DNA of 64,000 bases from Brevibacterium sp. S22 (GTDB lineage Bacteria; Actinomycetota; Actinomycetes; Actinomycetales; Brevibacteriaceae): assembly GCF_004745485.1 (NCBI RefSeq), contig NZ_RHFG01000011.1:1-64000 (forward strand). The letters run 5' to 3'. The stretch's first letter is position 1. Every line of letters begins with the position of its first letter. A program made the position numbers and the translations under genes. Below, one piece after another: positions 16,215-54,692 of the stretch. The notes under the pieces are model-generated. The model made no database searches. It was not told where the DNA came from and saw only the letters and a program-made list of their open reading frames with translations.

Positions 16215-16220
16215 CCTTCC

Positions 16221-18451: not shown

Positions 18452-18499
18452 CCGCGGATCCGCAAGCTGAATCGGCGCACCAGCCGATCCGTCCCGCGG
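18452..18499. repeat. Interrupted hairpin sharing its core with the one at 6818-6857
   Basis: An inner stem ATCGGC (18471-18476) / GCCGAT (18483-18488) with loop GCACCA is flanked by CCGCGG at both ends (18452-18457 and 18494-18499). The right arm, loop and outer CCGCGG closely follow the perfect hairpin at 6818-6857. It lies between divergent genes, so it cannot be a terminator for either of them in the usual sense. Confidence 0.55.
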
Positions 18500-18549
18500 C
18501 TATTATTGGGACCATCACCGTGTGACCTGACAGAGGAAGTGGGACTGCC

Positions 18550-19473
18550 ATGGCCAAGCTGACAAAGATGGTCTCAGCCATCGGGTCCCTCAAGGACCTC
18601 AATTCTGCCCGTGCCGAGTTCGATGATGCCTCGAAGACCATCCCCGCCGAGGCTGCCTTCCCACCCGCAGACATCCGTCCAACTGCGGACGATTCCCGCA
18701 CCCTGATGCTTCGGGTGACGAATCCGGGAAACTTCGCCGAGGAGGCCCCGCGGGCATCGAGACAAGGTGACACGTTCGCGGTCATCCACGTTCCTGCATC
18801 AAACGATTTCGCCGCGGTACTCGTGTTCAATCCCGCGACGCAGATCGAGTCGGGACAGACGTTCGGTTCCATCGCCGACGAGGGCGGGTGGCCGGTCATC
18901 GTCGCCATGGCCGAGGAGTACCTCGGCATCCGCATCGATCACGTCGCACAGCTGGAATCAGACGCACTCGGTCGAGTCATCGACGAACTCGGCGGCCTCC
19001 AGGTCTATAGCCGTACTGCATTCAGCGCGGCCGGAACCGACTTCGTCGAAGGCACGAACAACCTCGACGGCTCGGCGGCCCAGGTCTTCACCGCGGCGGA
19101 CCCGGTCGATGATTCGGGCCAGACCCGCACCCGTAACCAGCGCGCGGTGCTCCGGGCGCTCATTCAGGCGCTCAAGTCAGGCGGGTTGGTCAAGGACCCG
19201 AACAAGGGCGCCGCCGTCCTCGGTCACTTTGCCTCTGGCATTCAGCACAACGCCGAGCTGACCACGGTCGAACTCGGCAAGATCGCCAACAGCCTCCGCA
19301 CCCTGCAGTCGGATGACATCGCGGTGGTCACCGTGCCCACGAACTCGCGCCGAGAGGACGACGGCGCGGTCAGCATCGACTTCGATCCCGAGGCGGTACC
19401 GGCGCTAAAGAACTCTCTGGCCAGCAACGACCTTCCGGAGTTCTCCCGCTACCTCGTCTCTCTGGGCTACTGA
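18550..19473 (+). CDS. LCP (LytR-CpsA-Psr)-like protein, soluble and degenerate
   Basis: A 307-residue protein with an LCP-type domain from about residue 55. It keeps the pattern LGIRIDHVAQLESDALGRVI, then DELGGLQVYS, LDGSAAQVFT and the late D-x-R-x-x-RNQR motif (DSGQTRTRNQRAVLRAL). LCP enzymes move lipid-linked glycopolymers to peptidoglycan outside the cell. This protein lacks the N-terminal membrane helix entirely. The usual Ser-x-Pro-Arg-Asp motif that contacts the pyrophosphate is replaced by VFNPATQ. It is therefore probably not an active ligase and may be a cytoplasmic lipid-binding or regulatory relative. It stands alone with a good GAGGAAG site. Confidence 0.7.
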   Translation: MAKLTKMVSAIGSLKDLNSARAEFDDASKTIPAEAAFPPADIRPTADDSRTLMLRVTNPGNFAEEAPRASRQGDTFAVIHVPASNDFAAVLVFNPATQIESGQTFGSIADEGGWPVIVAMAEEYLGIRIDHVAQLESDALGRVIDELGGLQVYSRTAFSAAGTDFVEGTNNLDGSAAQVFTAADPVDDSGQTRTRNQRAVLRALIQALKSGGLVKDPNKGAAVLGHFASGIQHNAELTTVELGKIANSLRTLQSDDIAVVTVPTNSRREDDGAVSIDFDPEAVPALKNSLASNDLPEFSRYLVSLGY

Positions 19474-19612
19474 CTTCTACCTAGCTCTTCATCCTCCTGC
19501 CTAGTTCTTCATCATCACCAGCATCAGGGCTCAGCTTGCCGCACGGCCCCTAGACCGTGGACTTCGTGAACGTTCGGTCAATGCGGGGACGAGCAACTTA
19601 GCGGCCCACAGT

Positions 19613-19786
19613 CTAGTCGGCCGTAGCTCGAAGCCCCCCGAGGGGTATCGGAGTTCTATCGAGTAACAGATGAAGGACATCGGCATCCCCTCGCAAAGCA
19701 CCATCGGGAACGTCTTTGACCGTTAACTCGTTCGCTGACGGCCCTACGAGTGAGTCGCCGAGGATGTCGACCGCAGGCGTTGCCAT
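19613..19786 (-). CDS. Possible 57-codon ORF, unknown
   Basis: Starts at ATG 19786 and reads MATPAVDILGDSLVGPSANE and on through a balanced, non-repetitive composition to a TAG at 19613-19615. It lies just after a decayed gene on the same strand. I recognise no family. It may be a separate small gene or the last part of the same broken gene. Confidence 0.25.
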   Translation of the reverse strand: MATPAVDILGDSLVGPSANELTVKDVPDGALRGDADVLHLLLDRTPIPLGGLRATAD

Positions 19787-19792
19787 ATCGGC

Positions 19793-20163
19793 TCAGCGAT
19801 TCCAGCCACACGTTCCGAACGAGATGCTGAGGGTGCCAGTGAAGCCTGTGGCAACGACGAACTTCTTCAGACGCTTGAGGTCGTCTGGGGTGACGACGGT
19901 AACCTTCTCGCCACGTCTGGGCTTCGCTCATGATGTTTTCCAATATGCTCGCCAGTCGAGACCATCGCCGCCGAACCGCAGTGCGGGGGACCAGGCCAGC
20001 GAGCTGTACATCTAGCCTATACGTCTCCGGGTCGAGACGCGGATCTGGCAGTTCCGTCACCTCGAATGTGATCCCCTGATTCTCGGACCAAATTAGCTCG
20101 CGGGGCCTTTTTGATTTTGCTGGAGTCACCGCTGACTGCCGACCTGAGCTGCTGCTCAGACAT
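19793..20163 (-). pseudogene. Decayed gene remnant with frameshifts, unknown family
   Basis: From ATG 20163 the minus strand gives MSEQQLRSAVSGDSSKIKKA, then after a frame change ITFEVTELPDPRLDPETYRL, after another SSLAWSPALRFGGDGLDWRA ending in a TGA, and finally GEKVTVVTPDDLKRLKKFVV continuing to a TGA at 19793-19795. Each piece has normal protein composition, but no single frame spans them. This is best explained by a broken gene. I do not recognise the family. Confidence 0.35.
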
Positions 20164-20467
20164 AGTCGTAGTCGGGCTCGAGAGCAGATACTGTGCGGAT
20201 GGCCAAATCGCCGATGCGGCATAAGCCGTATTCCGCCTCTGCTCAGCGTCAACAGCTGCAATCTGCTTGCGCAGATACTTGCTTCAGCCAAAACCAGTGA
20301 CTCCAACCCTGGTGCCGCATATTGTTTCACTCGTACCGCCATCACCACCGTCAGATGCTCGACCCTGATCTGGTCACTGCGTCGGCGCGTAGCCCTCAAA
20401 CTGTTAGGATGCCGGTAACCGTTTCTGGTGCGAATGACAGACTCTCAATAGATCAGAGGGCCGAAGT

Positions 20468-21346
20468 GTGATTTTAAGCGACGATGCGATACCCATGCGC
20501 TGGTGGGACTACACGAGGAACTTCGGCGACCTGCTTGGTCCGTGGCTCGTTCAACGAATGTCCGGCAGAGACATCAAGTGGGTTCCCCGCCATGAGCCGC
20601 ACTACATCACCGTAGGCTCCATTCTGGGCCACGTCCGGCCGTCCAGCGTCGTGTGGGGCGTCGGCTCCTTCGGCAGTGAAGGCGAGAAGAAGGTGACGAC
20701 CGGAAACAGGTATTTGGCCACCAGAGGGCCCCTGACAAGGGCTCGGCTGGAGATGTACAAGCAATCGTCCCCTCGCAACTATGGAGATCCGGCCCTGCTG
20801 GTCCCGGACCATCACCCGGCCTCTACTCAGCAGGACAGCAAGGTCGGTCTGATACTTCGGTGGTCGGAACGCGTGCGCAAACGGAATTTCGACGTCGACG
20901 GCGTACGCGTCATCGACCTGGAGACGGACAGCATCGAGGACACCCTGGATGCCATCACCTCATGCGAAGTGATCATATCGACGTCACTGCACGGACTCAT
21001 TCTCGCCGATGCTTACGGCATCCCCAACGCTTGGTTGATCGCAGACACCGGGTACGGCAAAGAGCACAAATTCTGGGACTACCTGCTTTCGGTCCGGAAG
21101 GAACGAGAACCGGTCGAAGCGGACATCACCGAAAAGGGAATGACCGTCAGCTCGTTCATGAATAGATTCTCCTTTGACGATCGCCCGATGAAGATCGACC
21201 TCGAGGCATTGAAAGCTTCCAATCCGTTCACCGGGAACTCGCCTCGGATCGCCGAAGCTGAGAAGGTCGCACTGACAGGAGCGGAAGAGATGGCCGCTCA
21301 AGGCCGCGTGGACCGGAAGAGCCTCCAGCCGCGCTACCTCAAGTAG
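20468..21346 (+). CDS. Polysaccharide pyruvyl transferase family protein
   Basis: A 292-residue protein with the family pattern: NFGDLLGPWLV near the start, RGPLTRARL, NYGDPALLVP in the middle and STSLHGLILADAYGIPNAWL near residue 175. These enzymes (CsaB, WcfO, ExoV types) transfer pyruvate from phosphoenolpyruvate to a sugar or polyol to make an acetal. GTG 20468 follows AGAGG. It is the first gene of the plus-strand arm of the glycopolymer locus and precedes two polymerase genes, which suggests it decorates the polymer. Confidence 0.85.
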   Translation: MILSDDAIPMRWWDYTRNFGDLLGPWLVQRMSGRDIKWVPRHEPHYITVGSILGHVRPSSVVWGVGSFGSEGEKKVTTGNRYLATRGPLTRARLEMYKQSSPRNYGDPALLVPDHHPASTQQDSKVGLILRWSERVRKRNFDVDGVRVIDLETDSIEDTLDAITSCEVIISTSLHGLILADAYGIPNAWLIADTGYGKEHKFWDYLLSVRKEREPVEADITEKGMTVSSFMNRFSFDDRPMKIDLEALKASNPFTGNSPRIAEAEKVALTGAEEMAAQGRVDRKSLQPRYLK

Positions 21347-21746
21347 CGCTTGAGCTTCCCACTCGATCTGGTCACACGGACTGCCGGAGATGCCCAGCCT
21401 CATGGCCCTTCTGGTGCCGGTGGCCTTCGGTCCCAACTCAGCCCTGCTGCCACTCGGCCCCATCACAGCCCTGCTGCGTGAACGCGATGTCGGAGCACCT
21501 GACTGACCTAGGCATGGACCGCATTCAGCGCCGAATCTCTGGTCGGAAGCTGACGAACGGCTTTGTTCTCCGAGCAGTGCGCTGATCGGAGTTGGCCTCG
21601 TCCCACTCGGCATCCTCGCCGATCCGCACGAAACATGTCATCGCCGGAATGAAGAAAGAGACGAAACGTTAGAATCGCATGGAACCCGATTCCAAACGGC
21701 CGCAACCGGACGGCAACCGTGATCACCCCAGCCGAAAGCACCAGCT
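21347..21746. other. 400-bp gap, no convincing gene
   Basis: A short plus-strand frame (from ATG 21391, MPSLMALLVPVAFGPNSALL, stop at about 21505) has a near-repeated AGCCCTGCTG sequence but no binding site or known family. The promoter of the following fusion gene is probably here; I found only TAGAAT at about 21670 without a good -35 box. Confidence 0.4.
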
Positions 21747-24700
21747 ATGACAAATGAGGACTCGCCCGTCACGATGTGGACGATGACTGGAACCCGCTTG
21801 GGAAGCTTTCTTGAGCACCGCGGCCAACTCGAAGCGGCCCTCTCGATCTATCGACGCACATGTTCCTCTCCGCCCACGCCTGGGGAGACGTTCGCCATCG
21901 GAAACTGCCTCTATCGGCTTGAACGATACAACGACGCCCTGCCTCTTCTCAGGACCTCCGCCCACGCAAGCGGGGCCACCGCTCAGCACATCAATCGATA
22001 TCTCAATGCCGTCGACTATGTAGGGGACTACGTGGGCGAACTCGACGAAGTGGGTGACGATTCCTCGCTCCGACCGCAACTGTTAAAACGATACGCCAGG
22101 CATCTGGAGAGGTCAGGCAACACCGAAACTGCGCTGGCCATATATCTGGCCTCCGACCAGTCCGACGATATCGACGTCCTCGACAAAATCTATGAGCTGA
22201 CCCCTTCCTCAGCGCCTGTCTGGCAACGCTTGGAACGGCACAACGCAACCGCTGTCCACCACCAACGGGACCCTGAGTGGCTGCGAAGGCGCGGAGAGTT
22301 GCTGTTCGAAGCTCACAAATTCTCTCAAGCAGGAGAGGTGTATGCCCAGCTGCTGGCGATAGACGATTCATCTTCATGGGACTCCTATAACGCGGGAATC
22401 AGCTTTGAGCTGGCGGGAGCACCCGCCTTTCAGAATCATTACGAACTCGCACGGAAACGCGATTCCTCGCTTGACGCCCAGACATATGGCATAGGTGTCT
22501 TCCACGAGAAGGCGCATCGTTACGAACGAGCCGGTCACGCATATCGGGCCCAAGCCGAGAAGACAATCTCTCCGTCGACCCGCACAGAGGTGCTGCGTCG
22601 AGCTGCGCTGGCATTCCAAGGCGCCTTCAATCTGAAAGAAGCGGAATCGGACGTCCTGCGGGCCATCGCACTGCGGCCTCGGAAGGCCGAGTTGCACGCT
22701 TTGCTTGCACTCAATTCCTATCTGCTCAATGAGTTCTCGGACGCAGCAGCCTCTGCTGCTCGGGCCCGGCAACTCGGTGACGCCAGCGCAGAGGTCAAGA
22801 ATCTACACTTCCTCAGCTGTGTCGGTACTGGGGACTTCGAAGGTGCGGTATTGTCCTTCCTCGACACGAGTATCGAAGCCCTTCTTGCCACGTTCGACAG
22901 GGTCCCTGACGATGGAGAATCAACTCTGGAAGCGATCAACACGCCAGAGGATCTCCCGGACATCGAGGCACATCGCCAATGGTCCCAGGTTCTGCTCGAC
23001 GCAGGACACACAGCTGCCTCCGCCGATGTCCTGACGAGCGGCATGGAACGCTATCAGGCGCACTTCGAACGTGCGGACGCGCTTAAGGCCGCCCGGGCGT
23101 TGCTAGCAACGGGCCGAGCCGAAAACGCGGCCCGCGTCATCCTCCAGTCGCTTCGCCACACCGATCCCGTCCCGAAGATCTATGACAATCCGAAAGTCCC
23201 AGGTCTGGGTACGATCTTTATGTATCGGGCGTGGCTGGACACCGAACCCGTTCGACCGAAGGACATCCTATTCGAGTCCAATCTCGGCCTGTCAATCGAC
23301 TGCAACCCGCTGGCTATCTACCGCCATATCCGTGACAACGAACCCAATGAATACACGTTCTACTGGGCTGTCGACAAGCAGGCAGCCGTCCCGACCGATG
23401 TCTGGCAGGACCCAAACACCATAATCGTCCGGAAAAACTCATCGCGCTACGTCAAGCTGCTTGCAACTGCCGGTTACCTGGTGAACAATTCAACTTTTCC
23501 TACCTACTATGTCCGCCGGAACGACCAGCAGTATCTGATGACCTGGCATGGCACGCCATTCAAGACGCTCGGGAAAGATCAACCCGAGATTCTCGGCCAT
23601 GCGAATATGTCCAGAAATCTCCTCCAGGCCTCTATCGTGCTGCATCCCAACAGTCACACGCAGCGTGTCCTCATGGAGAGCTGCGACGTCGCTGCGATCG
23701 CAACGGCACAGTCCGTGATCACGGGCTATCCCCGCAACGACGCTCTCACCTCCCGTACTGTAGGGACCAGACGGGACAGCGAGAAGCCGTTCGCCCTCTA
23801 TGCTCCGACGTGGAAGCCCGACACGGAATTGGCTGACCAAGCAGCTTCTGTCACCGAGGTGGTCAAGACTTTCAAAGCTCATGGATACGATGTCGCAGTT
23901 CGAGCCCATCACTACGTGGAAACGAAGCTCGCAGAACTCGCCCCGGACGTCAGCACCGTACCGAGGGACGTTCCGACGAATGACATCTTGCCCCAAGTCG
24001 ACGTGTTGGTCACTGACTATTCGAGCATCTACTTCGATTTCGCCGTTCTGCGTAGGCCGATCATCTTCTACGTACCCGATTGGTGTGGCTACACGTCTGC
24101 TCGCGGAGCCTACTTCGCGGAGGACCACCTTCCGGGACTCGTCTGCCGGACTTATGCGGAGCTGCAGCGGGCACCGGTGCGGCTGGAGACGCGCCCTGAC
24201 GAGGCCAGACCATCAGAAGCGTTTATCAAGGAGTTCGCCCCGTCGGACGACGGACAGGCAAGTGCCCGCGCAGCTGACCTGCTGCTCAGAGGGGACCATT
24301 GGGACATCGCCTCCGCCTCCGGCGCGACACCGAAGAAGGTATTATTTCGACAAAGCTTCATCCCTAATGGGATGACCTCGTCTTTCGTCAATCTGGCACG
24401 TTCTCTGCCCCGCGAGAAGTATCGTCCGTTCGCACTCACCGACGCAGTGGCAGCGCACTCAGACAAGGCGCGGGGCGAGATGGTCAGGTCGCTGCCACCC
24501 GATATCGGTGTCATCGGTCGAATCGGACGGCATGCCGTCTCGCGCAAGGAGCACCTCGCGCTCCACGCCATCTCCGGCGACTCTTCAGCGATCAGTGACG
24601 AAGCAAGGCGCATCCGCAGGGAGGCGTTCGAGTTCGAGGCTTCACGAGTGACAGGAGACGCCCAATTCGACGAAGTCATCGAATACGACGGCTATTCCTC

Positions 24701-25508
24701 GTTCATGGCCAATGTGGTTTTGGGACATGCCAAACGCACGCGGGTCACTGGCCTCCTTCTCCATTCGGACCTCAAACGCGAAGCGGCTCTGCGGTTTCCC
24801 GAAATCTACCGAATCGTCGACCAGATTTCCGACTTCGATCGCGTCGCCGCAGTCTCACCATCGCTGGCCGCGATCAACGAGGACGGGCTGCAGTCCCTCG
24901 GTGCGGGACAGTCAGTAATCGGTCATGTCCGGAACATCATCGACACCAATTCGATGACCAAGCAGGCTGCGGAACCAATTGCTCCTGACCTGCAAGGATT
25001 CGTGGAAGATTCCGACGATCTGATCGTCTCCCTTGGCCGGCTCTCCCCGGAGAAGAATCTCGCAGACACGATTCGCGCCTTCGCGAAGGTGCAGAGGGAC
25101 CGCTCCGACGCTCGCCTCCTCATCGTCGGGGACGGTCCGGAACGGGCGAAGCTGAGTGTCTTGGCGAACTCGCTGCTGCCCGAAGGGTCTTTCAGGTTCG
25201 CCGGTCACCGTAGCAACCCCTTCCCCTACCTGGCAGCCGCAGACGCACTCGTCATGTCGTCATTCCACGAGGGACAGCCGATGGTCATCCTGGAAGCACT
25301 GGCGCTGGACACCCCCACCGTAGCGATGCACATTCCGTCGCTCTCCGAGTTCGAAGACCTGTCCGGAGTCGTCGTCTCCGACTTCAACGTCGATTCGCTC
25401 GCAGCGAAGATCGGCTCGGTACTCTCAAATCCGCCTGCCGTCGATTTCGACCCAGCGGCATATGTCGAGGCAGCCCTCAGCGAATTCGACCTCACCTACG
25501 GACAGTGA
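21747..25508 (+). CDS. TPR - CDP-glycerol:poly(polyol phosphate) polymerase - GT4 fusion protein
   Basis: A 1253-residue protein with three parts. Residues 1-470 are helical repeats of TPR type. Residues about 500-850 are a Glyphos_transf (TagF/TagB) domain, with TWHGTPFKTLG near 598, YAPTW and TDYSSIYFDFAVLRRPIIFY near 755, as in teichoic acid polymerases that transfer glycerol- or ribitol-phosphate from the CDP-linked form. Residues 866-1253 are a GT4/GT-B glycosyltransferase with LGRLSPEKN (about 1095), GDGPER and the donor-binding EGQPMVILEALALDTPTVA. It should add polyol phosphate and a sugar to the same chain. No membrane helix is seen. The next polymerase gene follows about 100 bases later. 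Confidence 0.85.
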   Translation: MTNEDSPVTMWTMTGTRLGSFLEHRGQLEAALSIYRRTCSSPPTPGETFAIGNCLYRLERYNDALPLLRTSAHASGATAQHINRYLNAVDYVGDYVGELDEVGDDSSLRPQLLKRYARHLERSGNTETALAIYLASDQSDDIDVLDKIYELTPSSAPVWQRLERHNATAVHHQRDPEWLRRRGELLFEAHKFSQAGEVYAQLLAIDDSSSWDSYNAGISFELAGAPAFQNHYELARKRDSSLDAQTYGIGVFHEKAHRYERAGHAYRAQAEKTISPSTRTEVLRRAALAFQGAFNLKEAESDVLRAIALRPRKAELHALLALNSYLLNEFSDAAASAARARQLGDASAEVKNLHFLSCVGTGDFEGAVLSFLDTSIEALLATFDRVPDDGESTLEAINTPEDLPDIEAHRQWSQVLLDAGHTAASADVLTSGMERYQAHFERADALKAARALLATGRAENAARVILQSLRHTDPVPKIYDNPKVPGLGTIFMYRAWLDTEPVRPKDILFESNLGLSIDCNPLAIYRHIRDNEPNEYTFYWAVDKQAAVPTDVWQDPNTIIVRKNSSRYVKLLATAGYLVNNSTFPTYYVRRNDQQYLMTWHGTPFKTLGKDQPEILGHANMSRNLLQASIVLHPNSHTQRVLMESCDVAAIATAQSVITGYPRNDALTSRTVGTRRDSEKPFALYAPTWKPDTELADQAASVTEVVKTFKAHGYDVAVRAHHYVETKLAELAPDVSTVPRDVPTNDILPQVDVLVTDYSSIYFDFAVLRRPIIFYVPDWCGYTSARGAYFAEDHLPGLVCRTYAELQRAPVRLETRPDEARPSEAFIKEFAPSDDGQASARAADLLLRGDHWDIASASGATPKKVLFRQSFIPNGMTSSFVNLARSLPREKYRPFALTDAVAAHSDKARGEMVRSLPPDIGVIGRIGRHAVSRKEHLALHAISGDSSAISDEARRIRREAFEFEASRVTGDAQFDEVIEYDGYSSFMANVVLGHAKRTRVTGLLLHSDLKREAALRFPEIYRIVDQISDFDRVAAVSPSLAAINEDGLQSLGAGQSVIGHVRNIIDTNSMTKQAAEPIAPDLQGFVEDSDDLIVSLGRLSPEKNLADTIRAFAKVQRDRSDARLLIVGDGPERAKLSVLANSLLPEGSFRFAGHRSNPFPYLAAADALVMSSFHEGQPMVILEALALDTPTVAMHIPSLSEFEDLSGVVVSDFNVDSLAAKIGSVLSNPPAVDFDPAAYVEAALSEFDLTYGQ

Positions 25509-25604
25509 TGCCACTGTTTGCCAAAGGTCTTCGCCCGCGCACGAGCGCAGAACTCGTACGCAGCCGATCGGCGAATCCGACTGCTCTCGAATAAGGTGGA
25601 ATCT

Positions 25605-27236
25605 GTGAAGGACACGCAAGAGCAGAAGCACAGGGAACGATGGGGCAAGCGATGGCTCCGGACGGTCGCGGACAAGGAAGAGCGCAAACAGCTCTTCCAC
25701 GAGTTCCAACAGTCTGTCGCCGTTCACCCTGACCTCATCTTCTACGAGAGCATGTCCGGAGCGAAGATGATGGACAGTCCCTTCTCCATATTCGAGGACC
25801 TGTTCACCAGCACCCCGACCCACAGCGGCTATATTCACGTCTGGTCCGCGAGGTCTCAGGATGTCATACCACCACGGTACCGGGACCTCGATTCCGTCGT
25901 CACGGTGCGACGGCACACGCCGGCCTACTTCTACTATCTTGCGAGGGCCAAATACATCATCAGCAACTCGGCTCTGCCCGAATACTTCGTTCGTCGGTCC
26001 GAGCAGCGCTACCTCAATACATGGCACGGGATCGGCTACAAGACGCTAGGACGTACCGAGCGCAATCCCCTGGGGGCCGCTCTCGCGGTATCGAACATGT
26101 TGCAGGCAACACATGTGATCAGCCCCTGCGAGTTCATGACACGGATCCACCTGACCGGATTCTCTATGGCTCATATGTTCACCGGGAAGCTCGCCGAAAC
26201 AGGTTACCCTCGGATCGATACCACGTTGAATGCCACCGAGTCCGATAGAAACAACTTGCATTCGGTCTTGGGCTGCACCGCGGGGGAGCCTGTCGTCACT
26301 TATGCTCCGACGTGGAGAGGCGATGCTTTCGACGTCGACCGTCTGCGATCCGACTTGCACAATCTGGCGGAGCTCGACTGCACAGTCGTCTTCTTGGGAC
26401 ATCATCTGATGCTAAAGTACGTCAGCCCCGACGTCCTCGACGAAGTCGTTGTTCCTCCTGACTTCGTCAATACCAACCAGCTGCTGTCGATCACCGATGT
26501 TCTCATCACGGATTATTCGAGCATCTTCTTTGATTTCCTGGTTACCGGCCGCCCCATCGTCCACTATGTCTACGATTACGACGAGTACGCGACTAAACGT
26601 GGACTCAACCTCACGAAGGCCGAGCTACCTGGTCTCGTGACTTCCACCTCGGACGAACTCATCACCGCGGTGTCCTCGTTCCTGTCCGCACGGCCTGATC
26701 TTACCGACGACTATCGTGACCACTTGGTTCGGTTCAACCCGCATGACACCGGCGACTGCACTCGACGAGTCGTCGAATGGTTCCTCCGCGATCGCACTAC
26801 TCATGTCCGTCAGCTCGAGGGGATCGATGAACGCCCCCGAGTCATCTTCTGGGGCGGGCGTCTCGGCTCCGGCGAGGAGCTCGACACCTATTTCAAAGAG
26901 GTGAAAGCACTCGCGGGCAATGACGACATCGATGTGTCGCTGTTCGTCTCTCGATCGGTGCGCAAAAACCAAGCCGCCATTGAGTGGATCCGCAACCTGG
27001 GATCATCGATCTCCATCATCGTTCGCGACGAGTACTCATTCGGAATGACCACAGACGAACGAGCAGCGCGCGAAGTGCCGGCGGCGCAACGGTCCAGTCT
27101 GGAAGAGTCTGCTTACGACAGAATCTATCAGAGGGAATACCGACGGATGTTCGGCGATACACGCTTCGACGAGGTCCGTCTCTTCCCTGGCCTCTCACAT
27201 TTCTGGAAGCGTCTATCCCAGGATGCATTCAAGTGA
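25605..27236 (+). CDS. CDP-glycerol glycerophosphotransferase family polymerase
   Basis: A 543-residue Glyphos_transf protein with YLNTWHGIGYKTLGR near residue 137, TYAPTWRGDAFD, and TDYSSIFFDFLVTGRPIVHY near residue 300. These motifs contain the catalytic histidines of the TagF class. I chose GTG 25605 because AAGGTGG stands at proper distance; the longer reading from TTG 25518 lacks a site. It adds a polyol phosphate unit to a lipid-linked acceptor at the membrane's inner face. The C-terminal 100 residues are an unassigned mixed region. It converges with the XcbB-type gene with 15 bases between the stops. Confidence 0.85.
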   Translation: MKDTQEQKHRERWGKRWLRTVADKEERKQLFHEFQQSVAVHPDLIFYESMSGAKMMDSPFSIFEDLFTSTPTHSGYIHVWSARSQDVIPPRYRDLDSVVTVRRHTPAYFYYLARAKYIISNSALPEYFVRRSEQRYLNTWHGIGYKTLGRTERNPLGAALAVSNMLQATHVISPCEFMTRIHLTGFSMAHMFTGKLAETGYPRIDTTLNATESDRNNLHSVLGCTAGEPVVTYAPTWRGDAFDVDRLRSDLHNLAELDCTVVFLGHHLMLKYVSPDVLDEVVVPPDFVNTNQLLSITDVLITDYSSIFFDFLVTGRPIVHYVYDYDEYATKRGLNLTKAELPGLVTSTSDELITAVSSFLSARPDLTDDYRDHLVRFNPHDTGDCTRRVVEWFLRDRTTHVRQLEGIDERPRVIFWGGRLGSGEELDTYFKEVKALAGNDDIDVSLFVSRSVRKNQAAIEWIRNLGSSISIIVRDEYSFGMTTDERAAREVPAAQRSSLEESAYDRIYQREYRRMFGDTRFDEVRLFPGLSHFWKRLSQDAFK

Positions 27237-27251
27237 ACGTCCGCACAGATT

Positions 27252-28286
27252 CTATGGAATTGACCGTATGCCTGCCGGAATCTCCACACCAAGAAGCAGC
27301 GAATTGATGGCCATGACCTGAGCATAGATCGTTTTCGGAGCCACATCGGGATGTTTCACGATACCGCTGTTCTGCGAATCGAAGATGGTCATTCTTTTCA
27401 GCAGAGGCTCGATCAGCTCGGAGGTGTAGGCGAATTGCGGCGAACGAGACGAGGTGATGAGCACTGAGCCAGGTTCGGAGACGCCCCGATCACGTGTGAT
27501 TTCGGTGAACAGTTCAGAGAACACCTCTTGCTTCGGTCGCGGAAACGTGCCGCCAGCTGTGAAGTGATAATCGTTCTTGTAGTCTTCGTACCACACGTCC
27601 GACAGAATCGGGTCGACCGCGACATATCGCCACCCGCCGGCTAGCCCGTGGTAAACGGCCCCGGTTCCGCCCTTCGACGCCCCGTAGATCACGACACTAT
27701 CGCGAGGAACCGCGAAACGAGCAGCCACATCGCTGATCAACCGGTGGACATTGAGACCATTCTCGGGCAGCGCAGTCGTATCCAGGTAGAACGCTCCTTT
27801 GACTCCTCCGATGTCCGCCACTCGAAGCACAGCGGTATTCGGTGCCAGGAACTTCCGAAGCGTCGCGAAGGACGGGCGAAAATAGCGCACCAGTCGCGCC
27901 CGCGAGCTGACCGGCGAGAAGACCACAACAAGCCTGTCGACCTGGCGGCTGGAAGGTTCTTCTAAAGTGTAGAAGATGCCGCTGTCCGAGACACTCACCG
28001 CTCCGCTCTTGACAGCCGGCCAATGATGTCGCAAACGATCATGTCGGATGAATCGGCTCTCTCCATCGGCATGATAGTAGAGTGAGTAGCCGAGGTTCGT
28101 CAGTCTCTGAAGCAGCAGTTTGGCCCGCTCATCCGACAGAGCGATCTTCATGAGATCTCGCTTCGGGTTCAGATTCGGATCGGTGCGAACCCTAAAATAT
28201 CGAGGCAATCCCTCGTTGTCGAAGACAGCGAGGTCGATGTCGTCGGGACCGGCTTGGGCGTCAGTCCAAAGGATACGGTTCTTCAC
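27252..28286 (-). CDS. XcbB/CpsF-type capsule protein with alpha/beta-hydrolase-like core
   Basis: A 344-residue protein. The N-terminal 100 residues are of unknown fold. From about residue 115 (RLVVVFSPVSS) an alpha/beta-hydrolase-like core follows, with the nucleophile-elbow sequence VIYGASKGGTGAVYHGL near residue 200. Proteins of this layout occur in capsule loci under the XcbB/CpsF name, but I cannot check the assignment. A role in adding or removing an acyl group is inference. GTG 28286 overlaps the stop of the 44-codon gene before it, so it is translationally coupled. Confidence 0.6.
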   Translation of the reverse strand: MKNRILWTDAQAGPDDIDLAVFDNEGLPRYFRVRTDPNLNPKRDLMKIALSDERAKLLLQRLTNLGYSLYYHADGESRFIRHDRLRHHWPAVKSGAVSVSDSGIFYTLEEPSSRQVDRLVVVFSPVSSRARLVRYFRPSFATLRKFLAPNTAVLRVADIGGVKGAFYLDTTALPENGLNVHRLISDVAARFAVPRDSVVIYGASKGGTGAVYHGLAGGWRYVAVDPILSDVWYEDYKNDYHFTAGGTFPRPKQEVFSELFTEITRDRGVSEPGSVLITSSRSPQFAYTSELIEPLLKRMTIFDSQNSGIVKHPDVAPKTIYAQVMAINSLLLGVEIPAGIRSIP

Positions 28287-28417
28287 GGCTTCACGTTACC
28301 CCATTCGAATCCGTGAGCATCCACCACCTGGACCGGCCGGTCTTCGGTCCGGATCAGAGTCCCGATTTCATCACAGATGACGTAGGCATAGTGTTTCCAG
28401 CTTCCGCGTGGATGCAC
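28283..28417 (-). CDS. 44-residue microprotein between polymerase and XcbB-type genes
   Basis: Starts with GTG 28417, 6 bases after the stop of the large polymerase gene and with AGGA four bases before it. It reads VHPRGSWKHYAYVICDEIGT and so on, ending WGNVKP. Its TGA overlaps the GTG of the next gene (GTGA). Composition is ordinary for a soluble protein, with Trp, Tyr, Cys and charged residues and no membrane helix. Spacing and coupling on both sides support real translation. It fills what would otherwise be a 137-bp gap in an operon where other junctions overlap. I recognise no family. Confidence 0.6.
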   Translation of the reverse strand: MHPRGSWKHYAYVICDEIGTLIRTEDRPVQVVDAHGFEWGNVKP

Positions 28418-28423
28418 GAGATC

Positions 28424-31400
28424 CTAGTGCGCGGTCGGCGGTTCGATGACGTCGTCGGGCTTCAACACGCGTGCCCGTAGCATGCGAGCGAGCTGATTCA
28501 CCGCTGGCCATGATGGAACGGCTGCCGGGGCTCTCCCCTCACTGGCTAACTCGTCGATGACGAACTGCAATAGGTCGGAGAAGTTCTCGGCGACGTTGCG
28601 GCCCTCGGCCCAACCGGGATACAGGCCGCGTTCCTTTTCGTAGCTGATTCGGTCTGGTACGAAGTGCACTGCCGTACCGCCTGTCAGCTCGAAGTCATAG
28701 ACGATCGACGAATAGTCGGTGATGAGGACATCAGCGACCGCCATGAGGTCCTCAACGTGTGGATAGTCCGAAACATCTAGCGTGAACGGCAGCTCCTCAT
28801 GCTTGGAGTTCGCCACGTGGTGCGCACGCACGAGAACTCGAGCCTCTGTCGCTTCCGCCAGCCGCAGAGGGTCGAGAAGAAACTCTCGCCAGCGCAGCGG
28901 GCGACCGTTCCGGTCAGCGTCTCTCCACGTCGGCACATACAGAATCACCCGTTCACCGGCACTCAGGCCGAGCAGCTTTCGAAGCTGGCCCTGTCGGTTG
29001 AGAGATTCGAGCAATCGAGCGTTTCGTGGCTGTTCGCCAACGGCGACCGCGCCTTCGTATCCCAGGCTCGCACAAAGCCTGTGCGCTGCCGTTTCCGACT
29101 GTGCCAGCAGCAGATCCCACTGAGGCACTTCGGTCCTCATGATACGGCGGTAGGTCAGAGGAACCTTGCGCCGGGACATGTCTAATAGCAGCTTCTTGTT
29201 CGGCGTCCCGTGCCACGTCTGCAGATAGAACTGGCCGGGAAGTTTTTGGACGTAGTAGGGGAAATTGTTGTTGTTGACCCACACCCGGCTCGTCGCCATC
29301 GCCCTGTGCCATGCGGCAGTTCCTTCGACGATGGGGACACCACCATCTGGCACATCGACGCGACGGTCGCGAACAGACCAATAGAGCGGTATGTCGCTTC
29401 GTGTGTCTCTGATAGCGTCAAAGATTGCCCTTGGGTTGTCGTTGGCACTCTTTCCGTTATATGACTCGAAGACGATGCCGTCGGCCAACTGCCCCCAGTC
29501 CTTATCGCGGAGTTGGAAACGCCCGTACTTGGACCGCTCGCCTGATGACCACGGGGGAGAAGCCATGACGGAGACAGCGCCGGAGTTCTTGCCTTCGACC
29601 CGGAGCGTGTTCCACTCGGTGAAGCAGTCCACAGGTCGGATTGCCAGTTTGCCTGCAGCCCTAGCCCAACTGTCGGTTTGATTCGGTGTTTCTCCGTACT
29701 TCAGGTGATAACCGCCTGCGAGCGCCGCGACCTTGCCTCCTTCGGCCCCGGTTGTCGTCAGGTCATACACAGCGGTAAAGCTGCCATCGGCATGGAACGC
29801 AGATTCTGAAGGTTCAATCGTCTGCTCGGAGGACTTGAGCACGACCTTGAGTCTTTCCGGAGGATCGATCCGACCGATGATCAGCAATCGGTCCCGGTCA
29901 TTTGTTGCACCAGTGACAGTCACTCGCCTGAACCGCTGCACCAGTCTCACCTTTCCGGCAGAGTTTGCTGCAAGACGCACGCTTGAAGTGCCGGGCAAGA
30001 GGTAATCCACCGCGGAATGGTAGACATCGACGTCATGGTCATCTTTTGTCGTCGCTGTTAGTCTCCACTGCCGTTCGCCCTGAGATCGGAAACGCTCAGG
30101 GAGCTCAGGCAGAGTGGCTGTAAAGATCGAAGGGCCTTGTGCTTTCAGTTCGACGTCATTTTCCGCAGCGCGCAATGTCAAGCTATAGACATCTGCGGAA
30201 CCGTCGACAGTCACCGTCACATCCCGTCCGCGGAAGTCGACGTTCTTCACCACGACTGGATCAGTCGGAATGTGTACAGGACGAATCGACAATTCGCTTC
30301 GGGCGTCAGCTATGACTGTCAGACGTCCCGAATCGAGAATCGGGCTTGGCGCAATCATTCCCACTACCGCTGTCGACACAGCAGGCGTGTGTACATGCAT
30401 CGCGCCCATTTCGAAGGAACCGATCAGGTCGATACCTCTGGGCGATATGTCACTCAGACTGGAAACATCAACGCCAACCGTGAATCCGCCGGCTTCGTAC
30501 GTCCGCCAAGGATCTCCGACGTCCAAGTCCACTCGATTGTCGTTACGAGACTCTGCCGAAACGTCCAGAACTGTCGCCCCATCCATGATTCCCTGCATAC
30601 GGAATGTGGTCCGCCCCGGATCGACCCCAGGAATGTATGCGCACCCCTGGAACTCGATCTGCTGTTCACCGATCCAGCGTGCGTTTCTCACGATCACGAC
30701 GGGTTTGAAGTCGACAGGCTGTGCTTTCAGCAACCGCTGCGGAATATCCGACTTAAGCCGCGACAGATACGTCGGTGCGACTATCCACGTACCGTCGACG
30801 AGTTCCAGGGGCACAGCTCGAGTCTCTTCCATCCTCGTCCCGAGGATTTCTTCGATATCGTCCATGTCCCCGAACGCCACAACCCACATGCAGAGACGTT
30901 CCTGCGCCGGCATGAGTTTCCAGGCGTCTTTCGGCATTGTCTTTCGAAGGGTTCTGGCCGCATCACAGAGGGTCTTTCGGAACCGTTTGTTAGCCGTATC
31001 GAGGTATTCGGCGTGCATCGCGAGGTCAGTGCCCATCCAGATCGCATACGCCTGCTCAACAACGTGGTCGGGCGCGTGGTTCAAGGTGTCTCTGAGCGCA
31101 TCGATGACATCAAGCTTTGACTGCAGATCACTCAGTTCGGCTTTGCGTTTGGAACGAGTGTCTCGGCCGTCGGCCAGTCTCCACGCATACACGTCGTTCG
31201 TAAGCACGTCGATCGCCGCAGCACCGACCAGTGCCCTATACACAGGCTCTTGGTCCTCGTAGTTGGAGAACCCCCACATCTCCCCCACATGACGATTCCA
31301 GAAATCGTGCCTATAGACTTTGTTCCACAGCACAGGCTCTTCCAGCAGTTCCGGCATATCTTCCAACCGAACCGCCAACCGCTGGCGAATATGTACTCGC

Positions 31401-31942
31401 GCGGTCAGCTTCGGCCTGGACCAGCCGGCCGAGCCAATACGAACATACGACCCAGTGGCGATGTCAGAACCCGTCCGTTCAAGTGAGTCAACCAGAGTCG
31501 AGTAGGCTTCGGTCAACACCTCGTCATCCGCATCGGCAAAGGCGATGTACTTGCCACGAGCAACCTCGACTCCGCGATTGCGTGCACGCGCTGGCCCTTC
31601 GTTGGGTCCTGTGAGCACAGAAACGCGCGTAGAACCGTGATGCTGGTTGGCTTTCTCAACGGTGTCGTCAAAAGAGCCGTCGTCGACGACGATGACTTCC
31701 AACGACACACCGCTCTGGTTGAGGATGCTCTTCAAGCATCGGTCAATGAAGTCACTCGCGTTGAATGCAGGAACAATAACGCTCAGAGTTGGAGTGTCCG
31801 TGTCTTCCTGGTTGGGAGATCCCACGGTCGATGTTCTGGTCGAAGTGAGTTCAGATTCCCGCTTTCGCCGGAATTCTTTGAATCCTTCGACGCCGCCATG
31901 CCGCAGATGCCACAGTGCTTTACGCCACTGCTGTCCACTCAC
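28424..31942 (-). CDS. GT2 glycosyltransferase - poly(polyol phosphate) polymerase fusion
   Basis: A 1172-residue protein. Residues about 50-280 are a GT-A family 2 domain with LSVIVPAFNASDF, VVDDGS and the metal-binding DADDE. Residues about 350-780 are a long unassigned region, partly beta-rich. Residues about 830-1150 form a Glyphos_transf domain with FYLQTWHGTPNKKLL near 910, ILYVPTWRDA and LITDYSSIVYDFELTGG near 1075. It should add a sugar and a polyol phosphate to the growing chain. It starts with GTG 31942 overlapping the DUF6270 stop (GTGA). Confidence 0.85.
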   Translation of the reverse strand: MSGQQWRKALWHLRHGGVEGFKEFRRKRESELTSTRTSTVGSPNQEDTDTPTLSVIVPAFNASDFIDRCLKSILNQSGVSLEVIVVDDGSFDDTVEKANQHHGSTRVSVLTGPNEGPARARNRGVEVARGKYIAFADADDEVLTEAYSTLVDSLERTGSDIATGSYVRIGSAGWSRPKLTARVHIRQRLAVRLEDMPELLEEPVLWNKVYRHDFWNRHVGEMWGFSNYEDQEPVYRALVGAAAIDVLTNDVYAWRLADGRDTRSKRKAELSDLQSKLDVIDALRDTLNHAPDHVVEQAYAIWMGTDLAMHAEYLDTANKRFRKTLCDAARTLRKTMPKDAWKLMPAQERLCMWVVAFGDMDDIEEILGTRMEETRAVPLELVDGTWIVAPTYLSRLKSDIPQRLLKAQPVDFKPVVIVRNARWIGEQQIEFQGCAYIPGVDPGRTTFRMQGIMDGATVLDVSAESRNDNRVDLDVGDPWRTYEAGGFTVGVDVSSLSDISPRGIDLIGSFEMGAMHVHTPAVSTAVVGMIAPSPILDSGRLTVIADARSELSIRPVHIPTDPVVVKNVDFRGRDVTVTVDGSADVYSLTLRAAENDVELKAQGPSIFTATLPELPERFRSQGERQWRLTATTKDDHDVDVYHSAVDYLLPGTSSVRLAANSAGKVRLVQRFRRVTVTGATNDRDRLLIIGRIDPPERLKVVLKSSEQTIEPSESAFHADGSFTAVYDLTTTGAEGGKVAALAGGYHLKYGETPNQTDSWARAAGKLAIRPVDCFTEWNTLRVEGKNSGAVSVMASPPWSSGERSKYGRFQLRDKDWGQLADGIVFESYNGKSANDNPRAIFDAIRDTRSDIPLYWSVRDRRVDVPDGGVPIVEGTAAWHRAMATSRVWVNNNNFPYYVQKLPGQFYLQTWHGTPNKKLLLDMSRRKVPLTYRRIMRTEVPQWDLLLAQSETAAHRLCASLGYEGAVAVGEQPRNARLLESLNRQGQLRKLLGLSAGERVILYVPTWRDADRNGRPLRWREFLLDPLRLAEATEARVLVRAHHVANSKHEELPFTLDVSDYPHVEDLMAVADVLITDYSSIVYDFELTGGTAVHFVPDRISYEKERGLYPGWAEGRNVAENFSDLLQFVIDELASEGRAPAAVPSWPAVNQLARMLRARVLKPDDVIEPPTAH

Positions 31943-32820
31943 ATGGCCTCACCACCGCTCTTCTTCACCTGCCGACGGATGCTTTCGACGATCGACTCAT
32001 AGTCAGGATGTCGGAAGTGGAAAGGCTGCGGACCCCATTTGTGATTCCTGTCGATCCGAAGCTCACGACTCTCTCTCACCACTGACGACGTTGTCAGCGA
32101 TCGCGCTTCTCTACGATACGGGATGTAGTCGGTATTCGCGGACAGCGCCCGATCGGCATACTCTTCCGCCTCAGTAGGTTTCACCGTCAGGAGGCTCTGC
32201 CATGCTTCGCCGACTCCCCGACCACTTGAGAGGCCGCGACCAGCCTGTCGCGCCCCGCGTTGGAGGCGTCGCCATTCGCGCCCGAGCTTAGCGAGTCTGT
32301 CATTCTGAGGGTGAGGTGCCCCGTCGACGGCGCCGGCCCATTCGATATCGAGGAAGATGGTCTTCTCCTCTAGCTTGGCCTCGTTGAGACCGTCAATGAG
32401 CTTTGCGAAGCCCGCTCTCCAAAGCGAAAAATGCTCAGCGGTGCCGAATTCGATCAGTCGAGCCCCTTCACGACGTGCCACACGAGCGGCTCCACAGGAC
32501 TCGATTTCAAGTGAGTTCGTCATGGTGGAGCCATCGGGGAACTTCCAGAATCCCCGGCGTTCATCGACCAAGTCGAGTAGGACGACGTCGAGGTCGTCTG
32601 CATTCTTGACGATCCGTTCGAGGCCGGTGCCCTTGAGGTCACTGTTAACCATTCGCTTCTGGAACGCCGAGGTCAGGTCGCTGAGATCGATGCCGGCCGT
32701 CCCGTGCGGAGATTCCAGGCTCGTCACCGAGTGCCTGGCCACGTAGGTCGCTACCTCAGCCTCAGGCATAAACTCCGCCGTATCACGGCTCACGCAGGAA
32801 CCGAAGATTGCGATCTTCAT
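31939..32820 (-). CDS. DUF6270 domain-containing protein
   Basis: A 293-residue protein that opens with KIAIFGSCVSRDTAEF, the hallmark of DUF6270, whose fold resembles SGNH hydrolases (a Ser after GSC would be at residue 8-9). Further conserved-looking spots are VLLDLVDERRGF and DIEWAGAVDGAPHPQND. The biochemical role is not established. Its ATG overlaps the TagH stop and its TGA overlaps the polymerase start. It sits between the exporter and polymerase genes, so a chain modification such as acylation is a reasonable guess. Confidence 0.7.
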   Translation of the reverse strand: MKIAIFGSCVSRDTAEFMPEAEVATYVARHSVTSLESPHGTAGIDLSDLTSAFQKRMVNSDLKGTGLERIVKNADDLDVVLLDLVDERRGFWKFPDGSTMTNSLEIESCGAARVARREGARLIEFGTAEHFSLWRAGFAKLIDGLNEAKLEEKTIFLDIEWAGAVDGAPHPQNDRLAKLGREWRRLQRGARQAGRGLSSGRGVGEAWQSLLTVKPTEAEEYADRALSANTDYIPYRREARSLTTSSVVRESRELRIDRNHKWGPQPFHFRHPDYESIVESIRRQVKKSGGEAM

Positions 32821-34124
32821 CGGCCCGAATCCTGATGGACTGCAGGAGCATCGTCTTCCTGTCGCAAACGCTGCCGCTCCTCATATCGTTCATCGGCGAT
32901 CTTGCGTGCGCGCGAAGCCAGTCGCCGGCCGGTGAAGTCATCAGCAGCGGCAACTGAGGAAGCACGGTCATTCGGATTCGCCGCTCGCAGAACCACCCGC
33001 TTCTTACTAGGGTTGAGCCGCAGCGGCGGGGCATCAGTGATTCGTGGGGCACTCACTACCTGAGAAGCAGGTTTGGGCAGCGACGGGAACTTGGCCTTCG
33101 GGATCTCGGCGTCGAAGGATTTCGGCCAGACCTGCTCTTCGGCGGCGGCCAGCATCGGCGTCGGAGTCTCTTCGACTTCTTCGACCGCGTGCTGTCTCTT
33201 TACATGGCGTGCCGAGTCGGCCTTCTTCTTGGCCGGGCGTGCTGCATGGCGCGGGATGGGATTCTTGATGAGTTCGGGTTCGAGGATATTGATCTCCTCT
33301 TTGACCGCGTTGCTCACCACATCGGCGAGGAGTTTGTCAGCGATATCCTCTTTGCCCTTGGCGACGTTCCACGCCCACCAACGATATTTTTCGGCGACAG
33401 CCTCGGCGGGGCCGTTCATGAGGATCTCTCCTCGGTGCATCCAGACTGCACGGGTGCACAGCTCCTGAATCACTTTGGCGGCGTGGTTGACCAGAAGCAC
33501 CGTACCTGCTTCGGCGAGGAGTTCGTCCATCGCTCGTTCGCTTCGCTCAGCGAACGTAGCGTCACCTGTCGACAGCGCCTCATCAATGAGCAATATCTTC
33601 GGCCGGGCAGCCAGCGCGATGGCAAATCGAAGTCTGGCGCCCATTCCTGAGGAGTAGGTGCCCATCGGCCGGTGGATAGCCGACCCCAGCGCGGAGAGTT
33701 CGACGACATAGTCAAAGGCCTCAGCCGCCTCCTCGGGAGACAAGCCCATCGCCAGACAACCGAGGCGGACGTTCTCACTTCCCGACAGCGCAGGCTGCAG
33801 GGCAGCGCTGACTCCGAGCAGAAGTGGCTGGTAACGGACAAGGATGCGGCCTCGATCCGGTTGTTCGACTCCAGCGACATTGCGCAGGAACGTCGACTTG
33901 CCGGAACCGTTGGCACCGACGATGCCGACCATCTCTCCTTCGCGGGCTACGAAGTTGACTCCACGCAGGGCTCGCACTGTGGTCTGACCTTGCCGCCCGA
34001 CGACTTTGTTCGTCAGTCGCCGAATTCCCGTGGCCTGGTTACTCGGATCGTTGGTGTTGACGGTGTAACGAACCTGAACGTTCTCAGCGATGATGTTCGG
34101 ATCCTGCGGCTCAGAGTCGGCCAT
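32817..34124 (-). CDS. tagH: Teichoic-acid/polysaccharide export ABC ATPase (TagH type)
   Basis: A 435-residue ATPase. It has Walker A GANGSGKST (about residue 70), signature YSSGMGARLRFAIAL (about 157) and Walker B ILLIDEALSTGD. The family-specific LLGVSAALQPALSGSENVRL segment marks the TagH/RfbB/Wzt branch. After the ATPase, about 185 residues rich in Lys, Ala and Pro extend the C-terminus, similar in position to TagH tails but without a recognisable membrane helix. With TagG it would flip a lipid-linked polymer. ATG 34124 has a strong GGAGGAG and overlaps the TagG gene by 14 bases. Confidence 0.85.
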   Translation of the reverse strand: MADSEPQDPNIIAENVQVRYTVNTNDPSNQATGIRRLTNKVVGRQGQTTVRALRGVNFVAREGEMVGIVGANGSGKSTFLRNVAGVEQPDRGRILVRYQPLLLGVSAALQPALSGSENVRLGCLAMGLSPEEAAEAFDYVVELSALGSAIHRPMGTYSSGMGARLRFAIALAARPKILLIDEALSTGDATFAERSERAMDELLAEAGTVLLVNHAAKVIQELCTRAVWMHRGEILMNGPAEAVAEKYRWWAWNVAKGKEDIADKLLADVVSNAVKEEINILEPELIKNPIPRHAARPAKKKADSARHVKRQHAVEEVEETPTPMLAAAEEQVWPKSFDAEIPKAKFPSLPKPASQVVSAPRITDAPPLRLNPSKKRVVLRAANPNDRASSVAAADDFTGRRLASRARKIADERYEERQRLRQEDDAPAVHQDSGR

Positions 34125-34992
34125 AGTTCTCCTCCCCTCTCCAGAAGAAGAGGAATCCGACGATGAGAAGTCCGAAGGCCCAGACCGTACCGACGATCCA
34201 CATCTTCGGATCTGAATCGACTCCGTAGAGCAGCGAGTTGCGCACCAGCGTCAGATAAGCGTGCATCGGGTTGTACTGCATTGCTTCCAAGAGTGCCGGA
34301 TGCTTGTCCAGTCGATCCTCGATGGAGAAGAACACTCCCGAGCCGTAGAGCCAGAATCGGCTGACAATCGACATGAAGTTCGTGAGGTCGGGGATCTTGT
34401 GGCCAAGACGGGCAAGGAAACACGCGAGCCCGACGTTGAAGATCGTCTGCAGGATGACCACGGGGATCACAAGAAGGACTCGCCACGTGATCTCTTCCAG
34501 CGGTGGGGCAATCGCGAGGACGATGACCATGACCAGCAGGGTCGGCATGAAGTCAAGGAAATTGCGGACCACAGTGGAGATCGGAAGTGCGGCACGCGGG
34601 AATTGGAATCCCTTGATCATCGACGCGCCAGAACGGATCGCCCCGGTTCCGCCGGTCATGCACTTGCCTGTGTAGCCGAAGAAGAACACTCCCACGACGA
34701 GGAAGCCGAGGAAGTTGTGGATACCTCGTGAGGTCCCCAGAATGTATCCGAAGATGAACCAGAAGGCGAGCACTGAAAGCAATGGGTTGAGGAACAGCCA
34801 GCCGTAGCCGAGTATGTTCTTCCTCGTCGAGCTCGACATCTTGGCCCGGGATTCGGCGATGATGAAGTGCCGACGGTTCCACAGCGCTGCGAGGTAGCTG
34901 CGCAGACTCGTCCGTCGTCCGACGGGCACGAGTCCCTCACTCGAGACGGACGGGATCGAGCTCAGCCCGAGGGGATTCTTCGTCTCACTCAT
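34111..34992 (-). CDS. tagG: Teichoic-acid/polysaccharide export ABC permease (TagG type)
   Basis: A 293-residue ABC-2 permease with about six helices between residues 60 and 285, including the early KNILGYGWLFLNPLLSVLAF segment that marks the polysaccharide-export permeases. ATG 34992 (after GGGGAG) overlaps the stop of the glycosyltransferase gene; the longer reading from 35055 would overlap that gene by 22 codons and lacks a site. It pairs with TagH to export the finished polymer. Confidence 0.87.
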   Translation of the reverse strand: MSETKNPLGLSSIPSVSSEGLVPVGRRTSLRSYLAALWNRRHFIIAESRAKMSSSTRKNILGYGWLFLNPLLSVLAFWFIFGYILGTSRGIHNFLGFLVVGVFFFGYTGKCMTGGTGAIRSGASMIKGFQFPRAALPISTVVRNFLDFMPTLLVMVIVLAIAPPLEEITWRVLLVIPVVILQTIFNVGLACFLARLGHKIPDLTNFMSIVSRFWLYGSGVFFSIEDRLDKHPALLEAMQYNPMHAYLTLVRNSLLYGVDSDPKMWIVGTVWAFGLLIVGFLFFWRGEENYGRL

Positions 34993-54390: not shown

Positions 54391-54692
54391 GCACGAACTC
54401 CTGGTCGGGAGAACCACGGGGGCCGCCTCGGCGAGGCAGGGTTCTCGCATCAAATACCGATGAAGATAATGGTATGAAGTTCTGCTGAACTTGGACATAC
54501 CGTCTCCATTCATCTCATCATGACGAACCCACCTTCGCTGACCGAATCAGAAGACCTTCACAGCGCATTCACTCAAAGTTGATGATGAAGTCACGTCAGC
54601 GGTCATTTCGTGAGTCATTGTGGTCAGGTTGCCTCGAGAAGCTCTCGGGTAACATCAGTAGTCGTTCATCTCGAGTTTGGAGCATCGCACAC
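54391..54692. promoter_or_regulatory. Divergent promoter region between wecB and wecC
   Basis: A 302-bp region between divergent starts. It holds the small palindrome CGAGAAGCTCTCG (54635-54647) and, overlapping it, a loose pair TTGCCT and TAACAT with a 15-bp spacer, which is too short for confidence. Shared control of the two genes is likely from layout. Confidence 0.35.

Follow-up and report, generated by a model that had tools for sequence, protein, structure and literature searches.

What does a Gram-positive bacterium build with one protein that joins a helical repeat region, a TagF-like polymerase domain and a family 4 glycosyltransferase (GT4)? The question is raised by P0001, a chain of 1253 residues encoded in a 64-kb stretch of Brevibacterium sp. 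S22 DNA (the window, to whose positions all coordinates refer). The open reading frame (ORF) begins with ATG and is uninterrupted by stops. Our analysis suggests that P0001 is a Gram-positive polymerase of the type of Cps3D and Cps7D, which would make a type II (glycosyl-polyol-phosphate) wall teichoic acid; we give this reading a probability of roughly 0.72.

Pfam placed Glyphos_transf (PF04464) on residues 500-846 of P0001 (E 1.6e-67) and Glycos_transf_1 (PF00534) on residues 1088-1230 (E 3.6e-27). Two AlphaFold2 models were built, one of residues 54-1253 (17 aligned sequences; predicted local distance difference test score (pLDDT) 81.5, predicted template modelling score (pTM) 0.75) and one of residues 1-500 (5 aligned sequences, pLDDT 78.9). 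They predicted a helical region of ~490 residues followed by two GT-B domains. The best PDB matches of the 1-500 model were OGT, SPINDLY, subunits of the anaphase-promoting complex (APC/C) and consensus superhelices of tetratricopeptide repeats (TPR). TPR models also scored above their cut-offs in homologues of similar length from other genomes, and the predicted fold and these homologues together confirm an N-terminal TPR region. The initial annotation had described three parts in this order in one intact chain, and both Pfam and the predicted folds agree with it. Among the best 25 of 29 NCBIfam models, no equivalog scored above its cut-off for P0001, and the TarF, TarL and TarB models were far under theirs.

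The top PDB sequence match to P0001 was Cps3D (8qoy, E 3.7e-114), aligned as a single stretch (query residues 492-1247) that spans both catalytic domains; TagF alone reached E 1.1e-27. Foldseek likewise ranked 8qoy first against the P0001 model (E 1.3e-56). VIA-align gave Z 41.6 over 926 residues (model residues 102-1200), with TagF alone (Z 33.9) and GT4 alone (Z ~20) both under Cps3D, and among the 50 matches listed all but 8qoy and the Hib enzyme 8a0m span single domains. His601, in a WHG motif, aligned with TagF H444 and His721 with TagF H584, while Arg1098 and Lys1103 aligned with Cps3D R982 and K987, using an inferred offset of 3 between the numbering of 8qoy and that of the paper. Domain search and structure prediction found both catalytic domains complete, and as judged from the alignments their catalytic residues are conserved, which bears out the earlier view that the motifs of both parts are intact. 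A legend in PMC11666461 ties WHG to glycerol-3-phosphate (Gro3P) transfer and QHG to hexose phosphate; the motif in P0001 would then point to polyol phosphate, not hexose phosphate.

Cps3D and Cps7D come from Actinobacillus pleuropneumoniae serotypes 3 and 7. In the consulted sections of PMC5974469, PMC8262930 and PMC11666461 they are described as an N-terminal TPR part, a TagF-like glycerol-3-phosphate transferase (CgoT) and a GT-B galactosyltransferase (CgaT), and their polymer alternates Gro3P and galactose. P0001 shares with them the three parts in order in one chain, the catalytic His/His and Arg/Lys positions and the overall fold. By its domain arrangement, a TagF-like domain and then a C-terminal GT-B domain, it belongs to the TagF/GT-B class (Cps3D/Cps7D type) of TagF-like polymerases, and its predicted N-terminal TPR region is a trait of the majority of that class. 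The initial annotation had known of no enzyme with this exact order. That claim falls, since the fusion has already been characterised in Cps3D and Cps7D, published as TPR-TagF-GT-B, and Cps3D has been crystallised (8qoy). What is new is the setting in a Gram-positive wall-polymer locus and the exchangeable polymerase slot; the domain order was already known. Cps3D and Cps7D belong to Gram-negative group 2 capsule loci and use a lipid-linked 3-deoxy-D-manno-octulosonic acid (Kdo) primer, whereas P0001 lies in a Gram-positive wall locus. No published Gram-positive TPR-TagF-GT4 enzyme appeared in titles and the starts of abstracts, a coverage with most subscription journals outside it.

The homologues also indicate what the TPR part may do. 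Sections of PMC11666461 report that truncating it in Cps3D and Cps7D abolished elongation of a poly(Gro3P) linker, made the enzymes more distributive and shortened the chains. The earlier proposal that the repeats measure length or bind partners comes close to these data, and by analogy P0001 may behave likewise. The TPR of Cps3D (14 helices, residues 100-357) dimerises, and Cps7D, with a predicted TPR of 20 helices, is monomeric (PMC11666461). The helical region of P0001 (~490 residues, more than 20 helices) is longer than either, so our guess from the model is a Cps7D-like monomer.

By analogy, the TagF-like domain would take polyol phosphate from a CDP-polyol (most likely CDP-glycerol) and attach it to a sugar, and the GT4 domain would use a nucleotide sugar to glycosylate the polyol in a retaining reaction. 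Taking turns, the two would produce poly(glycosyl-polyol phosphate), a type II wall teichoic acid; the alternation that the initial annotation had suggested is performed by the homologues, and for P0001 it would follow from homology. The sugar cannot be deduced from sequence. A polyprenyl-linked primer would come from the neighbouring TagO/WecA-type transferase, the GT4 enzymes and probably the GT2-TagF protein P0003, and the TPR scaffold would orient both catalytic domains and hold the chain or the primer-making enzymes, conferring processivity. The ATP-binding cassette (ABC) transporter would export the polymer and LytR-CpsA-Psr (LCP) proteins would attach it to peptidoglycan, an anchoring that we infer from the presence of LCP and TagO-type genes. 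The polymerase, sitting in an exchangeable cassette, would set the repeat unit.

Table 1. Positions of P0001, its parts, its neighbours and the exchanged block in the window.
Feature	Position	Strand	Evidence or remark
LytR-CpsA-Psr (LCP) family protein	18550..19473	+	PF03816 E 3.5e-13, above cut-off
Block without a blastn alignment >150 bases to sister genome G036, ~9.6 kb	19472..29096		flanks align at 83-92%
Polysaccharide pyruvyltransferase-family protein	20468..21346	+	PF04230 E 2.5e-12
TPR-TagF-GT4 polymerase P0001	21747..25508	+	1253 aa
P0001 helical TPR region, residues 1-491	21747..23219	+	all-helical model, TPR folds best matches
P0001 TagF-like (CgoT-like) GT-B domain, residues 500-846, His601 and His721	23244..24284	+	PF04464; residue mapping
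P0001 GT4 (CgaT-like) GT-B domain, residues ~856-1253, Arg1098/Lys1103/Glu1175	24312..25505	+	PF00534; Cps3D alignment; mapping
Second TagF protein P0002	25518..27236	+	PF04464 E 1.2e-70
XcbB/CpsF family capsular polysaccharide biosynthesis protein	27252..28286	-	NF033892 293.5 bits, cut-off 125
GT2-TagF fusion P0003, shared neighbour of the variable polymerase slot	28424..31942	-	PF00535 + PF04464
DUF6270 protein	31939..32820	-	
Polysaccharide/teichoic-acid type ABC transporter ATPase (TagH/Wzt-like)	32817..34124	-	TagH models below equivalog cut-offs
ABC-2 permease	34111..35055	-	Wzm/KpsM-like models, below cut-off
GT4 glycosyltransferase	34989..36722	-	
GT4 glycosyltransferase	36719..38119	-	
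TagO/WecA/MraY-superfamily polyprenyl-phosphate sugar-1-phosphate transferase	38077..39114	-	PF00953 E 5.9e-26; NCBIfam equivalogs below cut-off
CapD/FlaA1-type nucleotide-sugar dehydratase	39114..41009	-	PF02719
Second pyruvyltransferase-family protein	49812..51221	+	PF04230
WecB-type UDP-GlcNAc 2-epimerase	53227..54513	-	TIGR00236 443 bits
UDP-ManNAc dehydrogenase (WecC type)	54579..55952	+	NF008286 580 bits, above cut-off

The minus-strand ORFs from the dehydratase through P0003 (41009 -> 28424) touch or overlap at their ends. Two components of the wall teichoic acid pathway, a TagO/WecA-type transferase (PF00953) and an LCP ligase (18550-19473, PF03816 above cut-off), are found in the window, and the ABC ATPase is matched best by NCBIfam models of teichoic-acid export, under their equivalog cut-off. 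No TagA-type N-acetylmannosamine (ManNAc) transferase was seen among the window ORFs scanned with Pfam, the rest of the genome not being searched; the WecB epimerase is present. Pyruvylated teichoic acids are described for Brevibacterium iodinum in part of PMC6801904; they count in favour of our reading, as do the wall-polymer neighbours and, described below, the cassette exchange and the tree. P0002, which aligns to residues 498-987 of P0001, consists of a TagF domain and ~150 residues that resemble only the N-terminal (acceptor-side) half of a GT4 domain, without the donor-binding half. A P0002-like protein in G688, from another family of the order, has a similar length (56% identity), which marks P0002 as a conserved half GT-B, not a fresh truncation. 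By eye, similar GxSxGG motifs occur in three window ORFs, 51245-52033 (+), 46101-47222 (+) and 27252-28286 (-), which might encode a group of serine hydrolases or acyltransferases that act on the polymer.

Several points weigh against a type II wall teichoic acid polymerase of the Cps3D kind. Pfam TPR models match the P0001 N-terminus below their cut-offs, and the fold alignments with Cps3D show no more than ~24-26% identity. The global root-mean-square deviation (rmsd) between the P0001 model and 8qoy is 21.9 A; together with the Z score over 926 residues this indicates that the domains match but are placed differently relative to each other in the model and the crystal. The LCP protein at 18550-19473 is below the NCBIfam LCP cut-off (TIGR00350); by eye it has no evident N-terminal membrane segment. 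The CDP-glycerol synthase gene tagD, whose presence in the genome above its cut-off favours our reading, lies on another contig (C37), beside another TagF gene set and outside the P0001 locus. Finally, the Brevibacterium teichoic acids in the consulted part of PMC6801904 are of type I, namely 1,3-poly(glycerol phosphate) with N-acetylgalactosamine (GalNAc) side groups, and mannitol phosphate; these B. iodinum structures speak against simply assigning the same structure to the P0001 locus.

The tagD gene bears on a first alternative, in which the chemistry alternates in the same way and the TagF domain uses another CDP-polyol (mannitol, ribitol or arabinitol) instead of glycerol. B. iodinum does have a mannitol wall teichoic acid (PMC6801904, in part), and with five strong TagF-domain matches in the genome not all need glycerol. 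The presence of tagD, and its place next to homologous enzymes on three plasmids, speak against this; synthases of CDP-mannitol and CDP-ribitol were not searched for. We regard the alternative as unlikely, with an appreciable chance of being right. On the Phaeobacter and Paracoccus plasmids tagD adjoins homologous TagF-GT4 genes, with an XcbB/CpsF gene nearby in Paracoccus; on an Enterococcus plasmid tagD stands together with genes for a TagF protein, a glycosyltransferase and a pyruvyltransferase and with wecB. The Phaeobacter reading frame (1534 aa) has the same three parts as P0001, so the architecture is present in both Gram-negative and Gram-positive bacteria. Megablast of the P0001 gene against plasmids gave no match. 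The tagD locus on C37 (L053, L054) also holds several TagF-domain proteins, a pyruvyltransferase, GDPD, GT4, GT2 and an AT3-SGNH acyltransferase, which suggests a second teichoic-acid-like locus and two wall polymers in one strain.

A second alternative is that the polymer is held only loosely, as a capsule or exopolymer, instead of being linked to peptidoglycan as a teichoic acid; this strikes us as distinctly unlikely. In its favour, XcbB/CpsF (NF033892) is a family of capsule loci, and so are the TagF/GT-B proteins according to the sections consulted of PMC5974469. An LCP gene beside the cassette and a TagO/WecA-type transferase in the operon argue the other way. LCP proteins can anchor capsules too, however, which makes the boundary between capsule and teichoic acid a soft one. 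No KpsC/KpsS-type Kdo transferase was seen among the window ORFs scanned with Pfam, the rest of the genome not being searched; we therefore file only the protein as a TagF/GT-B polymerase, and not the system as a group 2 capsule. Terms for an O-acetyltransferase role of XcbB/CpsF are absent from the main text of PMC11858502, and we claim no role for it.

P0001 could also be a type I enzyme. Enzymes of that kind (TagF, TarF, TarL) make plain poly(polyol phosphate) and leave sugars to separate glycosyltransferases; their TagF domain has the same fold and catalytic histidines as that of P0001. The GT4 domain would then add a TarM-like side-group sugar outside the main chain. TarM, a side-group GT4, is indeed among the fold matches of the GT4 domain, and B. 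iodinum has a glycerol wall teichoic acid made of 1,3-poly(glycerol phosphate) that bears alpha-GalNAc as side groups (PMC6801904, in part). Against this, the best whole-chain match is Cps3D, whose two domains alternate (PMC8262930, in part), and we see a slim chance for a type I enzyme. There is next to no chance that the fusion is accidental or that an assembly error or a frameshift has joined two genes: nothing was found in support, and P0001-like homologues of similar length occur in G044, G688, G054, G036, G674, G578 and G605, that of Brevibacterium sp. RIT 803 (G044; 1255 aa, 78% identical) itself arguing against an assembly artefact.

A match at E <= 1e-60 was found in 6 genomes of a class-wide sample of 393, with a frame of more than 1000 aa only in the strain's own genome, and a match at E <= 1e-55 in 23 of 396 genomes across the order, with a frame of more than 1200 aa in 7 of the 23; samples and thresholds differ, and these counts are not comparable as rates. 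Shorter TagF-GT4 proteins lacking the TPR part occur in at least 14 of 57 genomes of the genus. We built a tree of the two catalytic domains only, from 35 rows spanning both, leaving out L045 and L060 as second copies of L011 and L072. All 11 proteins with a long N-terminal part fell into one group (98/97). P0001 and its G044 homologue joined G688 (100/100), and the proteins of G036 and G054 joined G674 and G578 of another family (100/99), so that P0001 does not group with these members of its own genus. A viral-classed IMG/VR contig, which may be a bacterial island miscalled viral, encodes a long TPR-TagF-GT4 homologue (L075:3001-6378, +) that groups with the Phaeobacter plasmid protein.

The polymerase gene itself lies in an exchanged part of the window. 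By RpoB DNA identity the nearest of the compared genomes is G036 (96.4%), with G006 at 91.0%, G044 at 90.0%, G054 at 83.0% and G688 at 79.3%. Counting only blastn alignments of more than 150 bases, window positions 15439-19471 and 29097-49903 align in five pieces to a stretch of G036 (83-92%). The block between them meets the stop codon of the LCP gene on its left. On its right it ends within the 3' part of P0003, a protein that is also more diverged from G036 in its C-terminal part (70% against 89%). The G036 cassette encodes its own TPR-TagF-GT4 protein, on the opposite strand and only ~34% identical to P0001 (against 78% for that of G044), together with a LicD-type protein, a hexapeptide acetyltransferase and a protein like XcbB/CpsF that scores below the cut-off. 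By this comparison G036 has a different cassette in place of the ~9.6-kb block around the polymerase. G688 has a set like that of the window (P0002-like 56%, XcbB/CpsF 51%, GT2-TagF 34%), and its polymerase, which aligns from residue 16 or 17 onwards, is 35-37% identical to P0001. Just upstream of its polymerase, G044 has an IS110-type transposase gene (L051:14731-15660, -), a possible agent of cassette movement; the XcbB/CpsF homologue there (L052:1612-2644, -) came in two overlapping blast pieces, possibly through a frameshift. In Bacillus subtilis, which belongs to another phylum and has type I tag/tar genes, wall teichoic acid genes have reportedly been swapped horizontally as cassettes in a like manner (PMC8753576).

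Beside P0003 lies a variable polymerase slot. Relatives of P0003 at 60% identity or more occur in 12 of the 57 genus genomes, our own included. The slot holds a TagF-GT4 protein in four of them (G000, the strain's own genome, G036, G044 and G006, where the protein has 1096 aa and no TPR model at E <= 0.001) and a second GT2-TagF protein of 1223-1249 aa in the other eight. Gram-negative capsule polymerases fall into two classes, TagF/GT-B and GT-A/TagF (PMC5974469, in part), so the contents of the slot match two known architectures. The GT-A/TagF polymerases Cps1B, Ccs2 and Cps12B share the TagF-like domain family with P0001, and their counterpart in the equivalent slot is the GT2-TagF protein of eight of the 12 loci; unlike P0001 they carry an N-terminal GT-A sugar transferase, not a C-terminal GT-B. 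The TPR part of Cps1B sits at the C-terminus, and truncation to 32-858 of 1246 residues removed it (PMC5974469, in part). A broader idea, tentative and with the odds somewhat against it, is that one exchangeable stock of TagF-fusion polymerases serves both the type II wall teichoic acids of Gram-positive bacteria and the group 2 capsules of Gram-negative ones. A constant Brevibacterium wall-polymer operon (TagO-type transferase, GT4s, ABC exporter and a GT2-TagF protein as transition transferase joining primer to polymer) would feed a plug-in slot, filled by TPR-TagF-GT4 or a second GT2-TagF protein, which would set the wall serotype as in the capsule loci of pathogens.

The P0001 locus offers a concrete candidate for a poorly understood class of wall teichoic acids. 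Brevibacterium is cultivable, and the sister genome G036 has a different polymerase cassette between conserved flanks. The pair therefore lends itself to a direct comparison of cassette, polymer structure and specificity for phages or antibodies.

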